This document shows, one piece after another, positions 5,322 to 42,253 of a DNA stretch of 64,000 nt; the stretch's first letter is position 1; each line of letters begins with the position of its first letter. The notes under the pieces are model-generated. The model saw nothing but the letters and a program-made list of their open reading frames with translations, was not told where the DNA came from and searched no databases. Position numbers and translations under genes: made by a program. The DNA comes from Brockia lithotrophica (GTDB lineage Bacteria; Bacillota; Bacilli; Thermicanales; DSM-22653), in the NCBI GenBank assembly GCA_003050565.1, contig PEBW01000005.1:62001-126000 (forward strand), written 5' to 3'.

Positions 5322-5815
5322 CCACATGACGGAAGGCGGTTCGCACCTTAAAGGCGCCGGATGTCTAGAAGCCGCCACGGCGTGTCTTCAAGCGAGCGAA
5401 AAAGAATCTCCTCGGATCCGGCCCCCGACGCGAGGGGCACCCCCCAAGACGAACTACCAAAAGAGCACCCGGAAGAGAAGCGCGAGCGGCGTTAAGCCAA
5501 ACCCGACGCAATTCCTGAACATAGCCTTCTTCTCCCGAAAATCCCAGCTGCCCTTCGTATATCGACCCGTCTATTCATAAAACATTTCAAGGGAATGGAC
5601 AAACAATTAGTTCATTCCTAACGATCCGTTGCTCCGTCAACTGAACTATCATGTATTATCATTTTATCATAGATAAAAAGAATCGGAGCAATTCGCCCCA
5701 CTACGACTTGCTTCTGGCGAAAGTCTTCGCGTATTGGATTCCTGCCACCGCCACGATATCGATTTGTTACTATTTTCTTCAAATACACCCTTTTGAGAAA
5801 GAGATACATTGATCA
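5322..5815. other. AT-rich stretch with no confident gene
   Basis: Base composition changes from the GC-rich background to clearly AT-rich from about 5500 on. Two minus-strand frames (5618-5809 and 5667-5858) are open but lack a convincing ribosome site and protein-like composition, so I leave them uncalled. An inverted repeat GGAATGGAC-N9-GTTCATTCC (5592-5618, 8 of 9 pairs) is present. This is probably the edge of an acquired island. Confidence 0.5.
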
Positions 5816-5965
5816 TTACTTTGACTTCATGTACCGTCTGTAGATGCCGTACGCCCATACGATGCTAGCCAATCCCCAAAAGAAAGCCATAAAATTCCCT
5901 AAGTTACTGATCGTTAAATAGATAAATATAACCAGAACTGCAGCTCGATATATGAGCTTGCCCAT
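5816..5965 (-). CDS. 49-residue two-segment membrane peptide
   Basis: A very small gene. ATG at 5963-5965 is preceded by GGGGGAG at about 5 bases, and the frame reads through to TAA at 5816. The peptide begins MGKLIYRAAVLVIFIYLTI, continues NLGNFMAFFWGLASIVWAYG and ends IYRRYMKSK. It is thus two short hydrophobic segments joined by SNLGN, with a strongly basic tail. Codon use is AT-rich, unlike the surrounding chromosome. The shape resembles small membrane toxins of type I toxin-antitoxin systems, small regulators of membrane proteins, or an export-linked peptide. Sequence alone does not choose between these. Its start abuts the decayed IS256 transposase on the other strand. Confidence 0.55.
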   Translation of the reverse strand: MGKLIYRAAVLVIFIYLTISNLGNFMAFFWGLASIVWAYGIYRRYMKSK

Positions 5966-5975
5966 CTCTACTCCC

Positions 5976-6319
5976 CCGTTTCAGCGGTGCCTGACACACT
6001 TTGTGCGAAACATTCTCGACGCCACACCGAAAACGCTGCGGGAAGAGGTACATGGCCAGGTATGGACGATTCTCGTGACAAAAGATAGGGGGACGGCACG
6101 GCATCTCACGTCTTCTCCTGAAGCAACCGTTGAAAGTATACAGGATGAGGGCACCGAAAGCAACGGCGATCCTGGAAGCCGGCTTTGAAGATGCGACAGC
6201 GGTTGTGGCGTTGTTGGAGAAGTACCGGAGACGACAGCGCGCGACAAAACGCCGTCGAATGGCTCTATGGGAAGACTCGGCACTACGAACGAATAATTCG
6301 GATCCCGAAAAAACTATGA
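5976..6319 (+). pseudogene. Decayed C-terminal part of an IS256-family transposase
   Basis: Three reading frames in sequence give the typical end of IS256-family (Mutator-type) transposases. First frame: FQRCLTHFVRNILDATPKTL then REEVHGQVWTILVTKDRGTA. Second frame, after about 6115: RAPKATAILEAGFEDATAVV then ALLEKYRRRQRATKR. Third frame, after about 6250: VEWLYGKTRHYERIIRIPKK ending in TGA at 6319. Family members normally read these as one protein (QRC.THF.RN..D..PK, GFEDATAVL.LPEKYRRRLRTTN.VERLNEEIRRRERVIRIFPN). The catalytic N-terminal two thirds and one end of the element are missing, so this is a dead fragment. Confidence 0.8.
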
Positions 6320-6326
6320 GTCCCTC

Positions 6327-6354
6327 TTGCGATTTGGTCGTTTTGTATTATAAT
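6327..6354 (+). promoter_or_regulatory. SigA promoter of the ABC transporter pair
   Basis: TTGCGA (6327-6332), 16-base spacer, perfect TATAAT (6349-6354), immediately downstream of the transposase fragment and 58 bases before the ATPase start. Confidence 0.65.
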
Positions 6355-6412
6355 GAAGCTGGGCAGGGGCAGAAAAGCATAGAGAGCGAGAAATGGGAAG
6401 GAGGTGGACTAA

Positions 6413-7222
6413 ATGATGTGCAAGAAAACTTGCGAGAGGGGGCCATGCATGTTCTCCGGTAAATCGAGGGCGATTCATCCTACCTCTGTTCTTAGAGTTA
6501 TCTGCGTAACAAAAAAGTACGGGAGCAAGAGGGCGGTTCACGACCTCTCGTTTGAAGTGGGAGCCGGCGAAATGGTGGGCCTCTTGGGACCGAACGGCGC
6601 CGGGAAGACAACCGTGATGAACATGATTGCCGGCCTGGTGCGACCCACCGCCGGGACGATCGAAATCGAAGGGCTCGACGTGTTCCGCGATCCTCTCAGG
6701 GCCAAACGGGCACGCTTTTTTGTTCCGGATACCCCGGCGCCCCTTTCGGGCATGACCGGGGCCGAGTACCTCGACTTTGTCGCTTCAGCTTACGGAATCC
6801 CCGTCGGGGAACGTAAAGAACGACTGGCACCGTATCTCCACGGATTTCACTTGGAGGATCATCTCGACAAGAAGGTGTCCTCTTACTCCCATGGCACGAA
6901 GCAGAAGCTGGTGCTCGCCGCTGCGTTCCTCGTGCGCCCGCATCTCTTGATGCTTGACGAGCCGCTTATCGGGTTGGATCCCCTTGCCGCGGTTTTTCTG
7001 AAAGACGCCTTGAAAGCCCATGCGGCAAAGGGCGGCAGCGTCCTGTTGTCCACGCATTTGCTCTTCCTGGCCGAAGAGCTGTGCAACCGGGTGGTGATGC
7101 TGTCCCACGGCAAGAAGGTTGCCGAGGGCACCCTGGCGTCGCTCCGAGCACGGGCAGGCGATGAGCAGGCCACCCTGGAAAAATTGTTTTTGGAGTTGAC
7201 ACGAGATGGCACCGAGGTCTAA
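6413..7222 (+). CDS. ABC transporter ATP-binding protein
   Basis: ATPase of an ABC transporter of the CcmA/YhaQ-like exporter type. Walker A GPNGAGKTT at about residues 61-69, signature region SSYSHGTKQKL (the usual LSGGQ is reduced to YSHGT, common in this subgroup), Walker B HLLMLDEPLIGLDP, and the H-loop STHLL. ATG 6413 lies 5-6 bases after GGAAGGAGGTGG, an ideal ribosome site. The first about 25 residues (with three Cys) precede the usual domain start and could be an extension. The gene overlaps the permease frame by 17 bases. With its permease broken, the transporter may no longer work. Confidence 0.88.
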   Translation: MMCKKTCERGPCMFSGKSRAIHPTSVLRVICVTKKYGSKRAVHDLSFEVGAGEMVGLLGPNGAGKTTVMNMIAGLVRPTAGTIEIEGLDVFRDPLRAKRARFFVPDTPAPLSGMTGAEYLDFVASAYGIPVGERKERLAPYLHGFHLEDHLDKKVSSYSHGTKQKLVLAAAFLVRPHLLMLDEPLIGLDPLAAVFLKDALKAHAAKGGSVLLSTHLLFLAEELCNRVVMLSHGKKVAEGTLASLRARAGDEQATLEKLFLELTRDGTEV

Positions 7223-39410: not shown

Positions 39411-39857
39411 ATGTTTGGGATTGTGCCTTTCCGCGAACGGAAACGCCGGGACGTGCGGAGCGTCTTTGACGACTTCGGCTCCCTCATGGACCGTCTTCTG
39501 GACGAAGAGTTCTTCCTCGTGCCGTTTGTCCCCCGCAGCTTCCGCACGGACATCCGCGAAACGGATGGCGCCTACATCGTAGAGGCGGAACTCCCGGGTG
39601 TCCCGAAGGAAGCCATCCGCGTGACCTACGACGACGGAGTTCTGAGCATCGTCGTCGAAGAGGACAAGGACATCACGGAAGAAAAGGGCGAGTTCATCCG
39701 CCGCGAACGCTACCGCGGACGCAACGAGCGCCACTTCACGTTGGAAAACGTAGACGAGGAAAAGATCTCCGCATCGTTCCAAAACGGCGTGCTTCGGATC
39801 ACGCTCCCCAAGCTCAAGCGCACGCCGCCCAAGGGCCGGGAGATCGCCATCGAGTGA
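39411..39857 (+). CDS. Hsp20 / alpha-crystallin family small heat shock protein
   Basis: ATP-independent holdase that binds unfolding proteins. 148 residues: N-terminal arm [20 protein letters not shown], alpha-crystallin domain [20 protein letters not shown] then [12 protein letters not shown], and [20 protein letters not shown] with the GVLRITLPK signature, ending in the IAI-like motif EIAIE. ATG 39411 is preceded by GAAGGGGGGG. Single-gene transcript with its own promoter and terminator. Confidence 0.95.
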
Positions 39858-39895
39858 AGCGTTCCGGGCAATCCGCCCGCGATTCCGCACACGTA

Positions 39896-39933
39896 CATGC
39901 CCCTCGGCGCCCGTCCGAGGGGCATGCTCTCTT
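39896..39933 (+). terminator. hsp20 terminator
   Basis: Perfect 12-bp stem CATGCCCCTCGG / CCGAGGGGCATG, 7-base loop, then CTCTTTTT. Confidence 0.9.
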
Positions 39934-39944
39934 TTTCGACTTCT

Positions 39945-40147
39945 TCAGCCGACGGCCGTCGCGTCCCCCACTTCTCTGCGGCAGCGGGGGCACAACCCGT
40001 AGCGTCCGAACTCGTGGTCGACGATGAGCACGTCGGGATCGAGGCCGTCCAACGCGAGGACGTCCGGTGGGCACCCGGGAGCCACCATGCCTTGTGGCCT
40101 TCTTCTTCTAAGCGCCGAAGCGCCTCCTCTCCGCGCACGGCCCTCAC
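39945..40147 (-). pseudogene. Small zinc-ribbon protein gene, apparently frameshifted
   Basis: GTG 40147 overlaps the stop of the ZnuC-like gene (GTGA). It reads VRAVRGEEALRRLEEEGHKA then WWLPG, and then loses sense. The next frame continues well: PPDVLALDGLDPDVLIVDHE then FGRYGLCPRCRREVGDATAV to a stop at 39945. The joined product would be about 65 residues with a CPRC knuckle. A one-base change near 40070-40090 explains this. If instead translation starts inside the second frame (ATG in GGCATGGTGGC) a 47-residue protein results. Co-transcribed with the zinc ATPase, hence possibly part of the zinc response. Confidence 0.5.
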
Positions 40148-41013
40148 TCTCCCTTCCCGTCTCCGGCTTCTCCGTTCGAAGCTTCGAGGGGCGAAAGGCG
40201 CACGAGCCCCCGCGAAGCGTCGAGGTGTGCAACGGGGACCACGAGCTCCCCGTACGCCTCGCGGAGCACGCTTTCCCAGCGGGCGCGAAAATCCGCCGCA
40301 CTCCCGGCGAAGAACACGCGGCGGTTCAAGACGACGACCGTGTGCATCCGCTCCGAAACCGCCCCGAGGTCGTGGGAGACGAGGAGAATGGAGAGTTTTC
40401 GCTCGCCGTTGAGCTTTTCCAAAAGGGCGTAAAACTCCGCCTCCGAACGCGCGTCCACCCCTACCGTCGGTTCGTCGAGGATGAGGACTTCGGGATCGGA
40501 TACGAGGGCACGGGCGATGAAGACGCGTTGCTGCTGCCCGCCCGAAAGGCGACCGACCGGGCGGTCGGCGAAGGCACCCATCCCCACCGTCTCCAAAGCC
40601 TCGCGCACCTTCTCCCGCTCGCGTCGCCCCGGGAAGCGGAAAAGACCGAGCTTTCCCGTGAGGCCCATGGTGACGACTTCCTCCACGGAGGCGGGAAACC
40701 CGAGGTTGAAGCTCGCCGCCTTCTGGGAGACGTACCCTACCCGCGACCACGCGCGAAATTTCTCCAGGGGCGTTCCGAACCACACCACGCTTCCGGCGTC
40801 CGGACGGAGAAGTCCGAGGGCGATGCGCACGAGCGTGGACTTTCCGGAACCGTTTGGCCCTACGAGGCCCATGAGTTCGCCGCGGTGCAGGGTGAGGGAA
40901 ACGTCTTCGAGCACGGGCAGGCCGTCGTAGGCAAAGGTGATCCCGCGAAGCTCGAGAACCGGTTCGGCCTTTCCGGCCGACGCAGGAGCGGTGCGCAACT
41001 CCGAACGAGACAT
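40144..41013 (-). CDS. znuC: Zinc ABC transporter ATPase (ZnuC/AdcC-like)
   Basis: ATPase of a metal ABC importer. Domain begins VLELRGITFAYDGLPVLEDV; Walker A LVGPNGSGKSTLVRIALGLL, Q-loop YVSQKAASFNLGFPASVEEV (the FP.TV.EVV pattern of zinc/manganese ATPases), signature [20 protein letters not shown], Walker B LILDEPTVGVDARSEAEFYA, H-loop LLVSHDLGAV. ATG 41013 follows GGGGGAG; the frame to 41115 has no support. The Zur box at its promoter argues for zinc rather than manganese. The permease and binding protein are not adjacent, so this is an orphan. Confidence 0.9.
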   Translation of the reverse strand: MSRSELRTAPASAGKAEPVLELRGITFAYDGLPVLEDVSLTLHRGELMGLVGPNGSGKSTLVRIALGLLRPDAGSVVWFGTPLEKFRAWSRVGYVSQKAASFNLGFPASVEEVVTMGLTGKLGLFRFPGRREREKVREALETVGMGAFADRPVGRLSGGQQQRVFIARALVSDPEVLILDEPTVGVDARSEAEFYALLEKLNGERKLSILLVSHDLGAVSERMHTVVVLNRRVFFAGSAADFRARWESVLREAYGELVVPVAHLDASRGLVRLSPLEASNGEAGDGKGE

Positions 41014-41085
41014 CCGACTCCCCCTTCCCGCGCGTCGTGCGATCGAATGCCGCCCGCGAACCTCCCCGGCGAGGCGGAGAAATCC

Positions 41086-41106
41086 AAATCGTAACGGATA
41101 CGATTC
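41086..41106. promoter_or_regulatory. Zur box
   Basis: AATCGTA-N5-TACGATT (arms 41087-41093 and 41099-41105, perfect), the same geometry as the Bacillus Zur operator core TCGTAATnATTACGA. It overlaps the predicted transcription start of the zinc ATPase gene, so Zur with zinc would block it. Confidence 0.8.
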
Positions 41107-41113
41107 AAAGGTC

Positions 41114-41142
41114 ATTGTACAACGTCCGCAGAAGGACGTAAA
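41114..41142 (-). promoter_or_regulatory. Promoter of the zinc ATPase gene
   Basis: Minus strand TTTACG (41137-41142), 17-base spacer, TACAAT (41114-41119); the Zur box follows directly. Confidence 0.65.
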
Positions 41143-41164
41143 GCGCGGGCTCCCGTCTCACGCA

Positions 41165-42253
41165 TCACGGGGCCGAGGAAAGGCGGCGGGCGTTTTCCTC
41201 GCTCCGGCGGATGTTTGCCAGGTGCTCCTCGTAGGTCGGTGCGAAGTAGTGTTCGCCGCTGCCGTCCTTTTTGGTCACGTAGTAGAGGTAGGTGTGGCTT
41301 TCCGGAAACACGGCGGCCTCAAGGGCATCCCGCCCCGGGTTGGCGATGGGGCCCGGGGGAAGTCCAGAGACGCGGTAGGTGTTGTACGGGTGATCCACCT
41401 CGAGGTCTCCGTAGCTGATCTGTTGCCGGTGGGGATCGCCGAGGGCGTAGGCCACGGTTGCGTCGATCTGGAGGGGCATCTTGCGGGCGAGGCGGTTGTA
41501 GATCACGCCGGCGATCTTCGGGCGTTCCTCGGGGACGACGGCCTCGCGTTCCACGAGGGAGGCGACGATCACGGCTTCGTCGAGGGAAATCCCCCGCCGC
41601 TGCAGCTCTTCTCGCCACGCGGGATCGAAGACCTCGACAAAACGCCGGATCATGCGCTCCGCGATCTCGTGGGCGCCCGCATCCTTCGGAACCGTGTACG
41701 TGTCCGGAAAGAGGTAGCCTTCCCACCGGTACTTGCGTCCCGGCCGTTCCTCGGGGGAAGGCACGTCGTCCAGGAGCGGCAGCGCAAAGGAACCTTGCGA
41801 CACCTCGGACAAGAACTCCTCGCGCGTGCACAGACCTTTTTCTTCGAGGAGGGAGGCGATTTCTTCCGCCGTAAACCCTTCGGGTACGGTGAACGTGACC
41901 GTTTCCACGTACGTTCGTCCTTCCCGGAGCATCCGCACGACTTCCGGTACGGAAAGCGGCGTTTCAAAGCGATAGCGCCCCGCAAGGAGCACGCCGGAAG
42001 GCTCCTCTAAACGGAGGTAGAGGATAAAGGCCGTGGCGCTGCGGATCACGCCCGCGCGCGCAAGAAGGTCGGCGATGTCGCGGGAGCTCATCCCGGGAGA
42101 AATCTCGACCACGATCGGATACGGTGTCCCTCCGCCCGAAGGGGGCGCCAGGGAAGTGCGGTACCAGGCGTACGATCCCCCCAAGCCCGCAAGGACGAGT
42201 ACAAGAAAAAAGAGGGCCGCCCCGATCACCCACCGGCGTCCCTTCCGTACCAA
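41165..42253 (-). CDS. mltG: Endolytic murein transglycosylase MltG
   Basis: Membrane-anchored enzyme that cuts nascent glycan strands. One N-terminal membrane segment (WVIGAALFFLVLVLAGLGGS), LysM-like part VVEISPGMSSRDIADLLARA, then the YceG domain: KYRWEGYLFPDTYTVP, VIVASLVEREAVVPEERPKI (catalytic Glu in VERE), PLQIDATVAYALG and NTYRVSGLPPGPIANPGRDA. TTG 42253 follows GGGGAGGACG. End of the yrzB-ruvX-ireB side, as in Bacillus yrrL. Confidence 0.95.
   Translation of the reverse strand: MVRKGRRWVIGAALFFLVLVLAGLGGSYAWYRTSLAPPSGGGTPYPIVVEISPGMSSRDIADLLARAGVIRSATAFILYLRLEEPSGVLLAGRYRFETPLSVPEVVRMLREGRTYVETVTFTVPEGFTAEEIASLLEEKGLCTREEFLSEVSQGSFALPLLDDVPSPEERPGRKYRWEGYLFPDTYTVPKDAGAHEIAERMIRRFVEVFDPAWREELQRRGISLDEAVIVASLVEREAVVPEERPKIAGVIYNRLARKMPLQIDATVAYALGDPHRQQISYGDLEVDHPYNTYRVSGLPPGPIANPGRDALEAAVFPESHTYLYYVTKKDGSGEHYFAPTYEEHLANIRRSEENARRLSSAP

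Follow-up and report, generated by a model that had tools for sequence, protein, structure and literature searches.

Organization of the znuC locus

We analyzed a 64,000-nucleotide stretch of Brockia lithotrophica contig PEBW01000005.1, here referred to as the window. Positions 39945 to 41142 had originally been predicted, from the letters and their open reading frames, to hold a lone Zur-controlled zinc ATPase overlapped by a frameshifted zinc-ribbon gene. On the minus strand of this region we find a promoter-like site, a putative Zur box, a znuC gene, and the ends of znuB and zur, with two deletion junctions between them (Table 1).

Table 1. Features of the znuC locus, in window coordinates
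Feature	Position	Strand	Basis or remark
Sigma-A type promoter-like site, TTTACG-17 bases-TACAAT	41114..41142	(-)	Sole such site in 39800-41250; hexamers and spacing same in congener
Putative Zur box (operator), AATCGTATCCGTTACGATT	41087..41105	(-)	8/9 arm pairs kept versus 9/9 in congener; probably a relic
znuC, zinc ABC importer ATP-binding protein, 263 codons, ATG at 41013	40225..41013	(-)	PF00005, congener identity, dN/dS
Junction of deletion 1 (1007 bp net loss versus congener)	40219..40224	(-)	Comparison with congener locus L119
znuB last 24 codons and stop, in frame with znuC	40144..40218	(-)	Matches congener znuB tail ASRGLVRLSPL..SNGEA.DGKG
zur 5' end, from the GTG start to the second base of codon 17	40089..40138	(-)	Within blastn piece 40089-40223, 87%
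Junction of deletion 2 (253 bp net loss, frame broken)	40088..40089	(-)	Comparison with congener
zur 3' end, 47 codons and stop, out of frame versus 5' end	39945..40088	(-)	80% identity to end of congener gene
Second CxxC (CPRC) of zur 3' end	39981-39992	(-)	Alignment

The ATPase frame, including its tail, matches PF00005 with an E value of 2.1e-34. The ABC ATPase domain of ZnuC is complete: the alignment contains GPNGSGKST, LSGGQQQ, VLILDEP, and SHD, which we take to be the Walker A, signature, Walker B, and H-loop motifs. Over residues 1 to 265, ZnuC is 92% identical to ZnuC of a congeneric genome (G001, here called the congener), and its start codon aligns with that of the congener gene. 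Orthology to znuB-linked ZnuC follows from two observations: the best match in the congener is the znuB-linked gene, and znuB adjoins znuC, within 3.5 kb and on the same strand, in all 80 loci kept from a ZnuC scan (the best 80 of at least 560 confirmed named loci, a set biased toward close relatives). No NCBIfam equivalog cut-off for zinc ATPases is reached (AztA, 173.6 of 220 bits; ZnuC, PRK09544, 138.6 of 306 bits), so the name ZnuC rests on orthology and linkage. As had been predicted, no permease or binding-protein gene adjoins this complete ATPase in the window.

The end of the ATPase frame (40218-40144, with the stop codon at 40146-40144) is the tail of znuB. The GTGA letters through which the next frame was thought to overlap this stop are indeed there, but they do not mark a gene start: the orthologous start of zur is the GTG at 40138, 5 bases past the ATPase-frame stop. 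On the plus strand, a terminator-like hairpin with a T run (39896-39926) lies behind hsp20 and near the end of the zur remnant on the opposite strand; it is likely the hsp20 terminator.

Comparison with the intact operon of the congener

At the congener locus (L119), mltG, znuC, znuB, and zur lie on one strand and are followed by hsp20 on the other, and the window has the same flanks. The congener znuB (336 aa) and zur (148 aa; L119 positions 5502 to 5948) are both intact. DNA alignment of the window with L119 omits L119 positions 6034 to 7033 and 5637 to 5898, and the net losses counted between anchors are 1007 bp for deletion 1 and 253 bp for deletion 2. These junctions rest on blastn pieces, anchor counts, and the alignment of zur with its congener counterpart, not on a global DNA alignment. 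Deletion 1 took nearly all of znuB together with the extreme end of znuC; codon 263 of znuC is now followed by six bases and then, in the same frame, by the final 24 codons of znuB. Deletion 2 brings the final 47 codons of zur up against codon 17, out of frame, because 253 is 1 mod 3.

The single frame change predicted ahead of a CPRC motif is thus present, at 40088/40089, with CPRC at 39981-39992. The gene around it is not a zinc-ribbon gene, since CPRC forms part of a Fur-family repressor, at its end. A query of 46 residues taken from the small frame matched, at 80% identity, the end of the 148-residue Fur-family protein encoded directly behind znuC and znuB in the congener, and alignment with L119 shows that the supposed frameshifted gene consists of both ends of zur. 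On the same ground we dropped the idea of a separate zinc-ribbon protein, and a base-call error at 40070-40090 was dropped because the frame change sits at a deletion junction. The proposal of a decayed small zinc protein was correct as to decay; what decayed is the regulator gene zur, cut by the net 253-bp deletion.

By alignment, deletion 2 took from zur its first CxxC as well as the DNA-binding region and the HHHH stretch; these parts, and the CxxC pairs, presumably have the roles usual in the Fur family. What is left amounts to about 16 start and 47 end codons with one CxxC, without the DNA-binding domain, the HHHH site, and the two CxxC motifs of the family, and the frame at 39945-40301 has no Pfam match. 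The Fur-family structural four-Cys site is described in PMC8000910. The intact congener zur matches PF01475 (Pfam FUR) with 97.4 bits but misses the NCBIfam Zur cut-off (29.9 of 167 bits); among named models it scores highest with Fur (88.4 of 220 bits), and the best PDB matches of its product are Fur and PerR. It lies in a znu operon behind a Zur box, and we call it Zur on account of its operon place and this box, its sequence identifying it only as a member of the Fur family.

In G002 to G005, zur is a single open frame of 147 to 153 residues, and znuC, znuB, and zur are adjacent in all five relatives (G001 to G005). Comparison of the small gene in close relatives had been proposed as a check, with an intact frame and a directly linked znuB counting against the original prediction; both are found there, and they show what was lost.

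In the congener, the ends of deletion 1, deletion 2, and a third deletion, in znuA, share 5, 8, and 4 bases, respectively. Flanking repeats were rejected as the cause of deletion 1, as 59% of 1995 or 92% of 1988 random pairs shared at least 5 bases. For deletion 2, 1.9% of 1995 or 7.4% of 1988 random pairs shared at least 8 bases, which is suggestive at most of flanking repeats.

Putative Zur box and promoter

The near-perfect box that had been predicted, AATCGTA-N5-TACGATT, is present at 41087-41105 with 0 mismatches. In a pattern scan of the whole 1.69-Mb B. lithotrophica genome, the runner-up matches had 2 mismatches each; the chance expectation at up to 3 mismatches is 0.67 in the window alone. 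Against the 16-base pattern AATCGTAANNNTTACGATT the box has 1 mismatch and is the sole match in this genome at up to 2 mismatches, and the reversed control of that pattern gave 0 matches in the same genome. One promoter-like site is observed in 39800-41250, against a mean of 0.0 (SD 0.2) in shuffles.

The box begins 8 bases downstream of the -10 hexamer TACAAT (41119-41114) and ends 73 bases ahead of the znuC ATG at 41013. Its proposed overlap with the predicted start site therefore fails for the translation start and stands for the predicted transcription start, near which its position suggests that it served as an operator. At the matching place the congener has a perfect Zur box and the same promoter hexamers and spacing, and the congener genome as a whole holds two boxes and no more when up to 2 mismatches are allowed: one each at the znuC and znuA operons.

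High-affinity binding by Bacillus subtilis Zur needs a 9-1-9 inverted repeat, according to PMC4324032. The predicted box is an inverted repeat of this type, with 8/9 arm pairs, and as in the B. subtilis-type Zur regulon described there it lies close to a zinc ABC importer promoter. It differs from that regulon, as far as the same source describes it, in that the box does not cover the promoter hexamers but follows shortly after the -10 hexamer, and in that no intact Zur was found here. As the draft genome yielded no intact Zur, the predicted box is probably now a relic operator.

Zinc uptake and Fur-family genes in the rest of the genome

The B. lithotrophica genome is a draft of 1,687,502 bases in 12 contigs, 97.07% complete, so that a second importer or regulator could sit in a gap. 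It has two Fur-family genes, against three in the congener. One is a Fur that passes the NCBIfam cut-off (236.9 versus 220), and the second is nearest to PerR, under the cut-off (142.8 versus 180). With one Fur, one PerR-like gene, and no third Fur-family match found in the draft, the description of the ATPase as Zur-controlled is probably no longer true.

A search for znuA and znuB with Zur boxes elsewhere in the genome, also suggested with the original prediction, was partly successful: znuA is present in truncated form with its box gone, and an ABC-3 zinc permease was not found in the draft. The one ZnuA frame (on contig C3, 279,530 bases) lies beside a patatin-like gene, named by eye, as it does in the congener. 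Relative to the congener, this znuA lacks a net 322 bp, comprising the upstream region, the start, and 69 residues that include the likely lipoprotein signal. The congener znuA is intact (338 aa) and has a perfect Zur box upstream (G001:C6:81016-81034). Because the two boxes of the congener sit at its znuC and znuA operons, both of its Zur-box operons are broken here, along with zur.

PF00950 gives one weak match in the draft genome (4.1e-5), which, judged from the open reading frames, is a FecD-like permease of a fecBCD-type operon. A complete ZnuABC was accordingly not found in the draft: it has no ABC-3 permease other than this FecD-like protein, and its lone ZnuA is without N terminus and signal. 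In a PF00950 survey of 61 genomes, B. lithotrophica included, 56 have a strong ABC-3 match (best E < 1e-30). The genomes without one are B. lithotrophica itself, G009, G019, G046, and G050, and the absence is unusual, not unique.

A ZIP importer (PF02535) was considered as a substitute and dropped, as no match at an E value of 0.001 or lower was obtained in B. lithotrophica or in G001 to G004; G005 matches. One NRAMP-type gene per genome is found in B. lithotrophica (contig C1, 351202-352245) and in the five relatives, and an NRAMP carrier is a possible but unproven remaining route for Mn(II) or Zn(II). The congener also has a second metal ABC operon (L120, 3832-7590) with a binding protein, an ATPase, and two permeases, the first of them split over two frames; searches with PF00950 and PF01297 gave no counterpart in B. 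lithotrophica.

Selection on the remnants

The dN/dS values between B. lithotrophica and the congener are 0.097 (znuC), 0.136 (znuA remnant, with 0 stops in 263 codons), and 0.262 (zur tail, 46 codons). The comparison genes give 0.043 (perR), 0.064 (nramp), 0.086 (fur), 0.100 (patatin), and 0.135 (mltG). At codon positions 1 and 2, the changed sites number 24/526 in znuC, 38/526 in the znuA remnant, and 13/92 in the zur tail, compared with 10/308 in perR, 33/770 in nramp, 21/342 in fur, 32/522 in patatin, and 45/722 in mltG. Taking Fisher P values as a guide only, because sites within a gene are not independent, the zur tail lies above all five comparison genes (P = 0.0003 to 0.016), and the znuA remnant lies above nramp (0.025) and perR (0.020) but not above fur, mltG, or patatin. 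The zur tail comprises only 46 codons and may be naturally variable. znuC lies above none of the five, and no relaxed constraint was seen in it; the znuA remnant, too, is under constraint still.

Residue changes assigned to the B. lithotrophica and congener branches, respectively, are 4 and 3 for znuC (13 not assignable), 9 and 6 for the znuA remnant, and 4 and 0 for the zur tail; the counts are 8 and 3 for nramp, 4 and 0 for perR, and 3 and 1 for fur, with many changes unassigned. mltG and patatin, analyzed without outgroups, have no branch counts. In the ZnuC alignment, 17/22 differing columns cannot be assigned to a branch. These counts do not single out the znuC, znuA, and zur remnants. 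An unrelaxed znuC implies either a young loss or continued use of ZnuC: the gene may be idle and not yet decayed, or it may be kept for another use, and the data do not separate the two. The losses appear to be young relative to the split from the congener.

A probable remnant of a Zur-autoregulated operon

On the comparisons above, we consider it very probable that the stretch is the deletion remnant of a Zur-autoregulated znuC-znuB-zur operon and that high-affinity zinc import and Zur have been lost. If the congener state is taken as ancestral, deletion 1 would have removed nearly all of znuB and the extreme end of znuC, leaving ZnuC fused in frame to a 24-residue ZnuB tail. The frame-breaking deletion 2 would have removed the core of zur, and a third deletion elsewhere would have cost znuA its start and lipoprotein signal together with the upstream region that carried the Zur box. 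The outcome would be a lineage without ZnuABC high-affinity zinc import and its sensor. In such a lineage any znuC transcription would start at a promoter with an operator but no repressor to match it, ZnuC would be idle, and Zn(II) might enter by another route, such as the NRAMP carrier; the loss would be recent. Decay of this sort is ordinary, and nothing new in kind is needed.

Three deletions in one small regulon, and an orphan ATPase that is still conserved with a borrowed tail, make the case mildly interesting. When an operon has been deleted, its two ends can pass for a lone "Zur-controlled" ATPase and a "frameshifted" small gene; recognizing this helps to avoid the annotation of a new zinc protein or of a programmed frameshift. 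Should other strains show the same loss, the bacterium would offer a natural experiment in living without ZnuABC and Zur, one that addresses how Zn(II) enters and how long a conserved ATPase and operator outlast their partners.

A stronger version, in which three independent deletions in both Zur-box operons amount to a concerted dismantling, with loss of Zn(II) uptake favored by the habitat and ZnuC with its ZnuB tail selected for a new partner or role, seems unlikely. We judge it improbable, too, that ZnuC and the ZnuB tail are simply kept for another transporter or role under relaxed or altered control. The ATPase motifs, the lack of acceleration, and the retained promoter hexamers would agree with such a role, but no ABC-3 permease for ZnuC was found in the draft genome, and a young deletion explains the conservation equally well, the signal-less znuA remnant being nearly as conserved.

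It is very improbable that the deletions are assembly artifacts and that the living strain has the whole operon, even though the genome is a 12-contig draft. There are three separate breaks on two contigs, and they fall in both of the operons that carry Zur boxes in the congener; the few bases shared by the deletion ends also seem too short to mislead an assembler. B. lithotrophica AL31 is described in PMC5928048 as a bin from the metagenome of a burning coal seam (1,689,796 bases in 12 contigs, N50 of 279 kb, completeness 90.64) with 435-fold coverage and 0% strain heterogeneity, and its figures are near those of the present genome, though not exact. The frameshift that had been offered as part of the expression of a small zinc protein, by programmed -1 slippage, can be dismissed almost entirely: a CCCGGGT heptamer (40079-40073, minus strand) does lie in -1 slip register 9 bases past the frame change, but it is probably there by chance. 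Against slippage, the corresponding 60 bases of the congener were scanned and contain no such heptamer, the shift coincides with the net 253-bp loss, zur is one open frame in the congener and in G002 to G005, and the shifted product would be without the DNA-binding region and the HHHH stretch.

Comparison with other zinc-uptake loci

The remnant reading places the locus among the znuC-znuB-zur operons of Bacillales, to which ZnuC is also alike in sequence (92% to the congener, 68% to Hydrogenibacillus schlegelii, and 62% to Aneurinibacillus thermoaerophilus). With the congener operon the window also shares its gene neighbors, promoter hexamers, and Zur box. Unlike an intact Bacillales operon, it has only the tail of znuB, a zur without its core, and a box with one arm mismatch. 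A literature search of titles and abstract openings found no description of this loss of zinc uptake, and the word zinc was not found in the main text of the AL31 paper (PMC5928048). Lineage-specific decay of Zur-regulated zinc genes has a likeness in Francisella tularensis Schu S4, where, according to PMC5786701, zupT is a pseudogene and znuA is kept; here, ZnuABC and Zur are broken.

Among the same best 80 of at least 560 ZnuC loci, 75 have a Zur-like gene on the znuC strand no more than 3.5 kb away, 25 have a ZnuA-like gene, and 21 have znuB together with both a Zur-like and a ZnuA-like gene. The znuC homolog of G002 (G002:C3:97669-98451) contains one internal TGA and may be broken or reflect a sequencing error.
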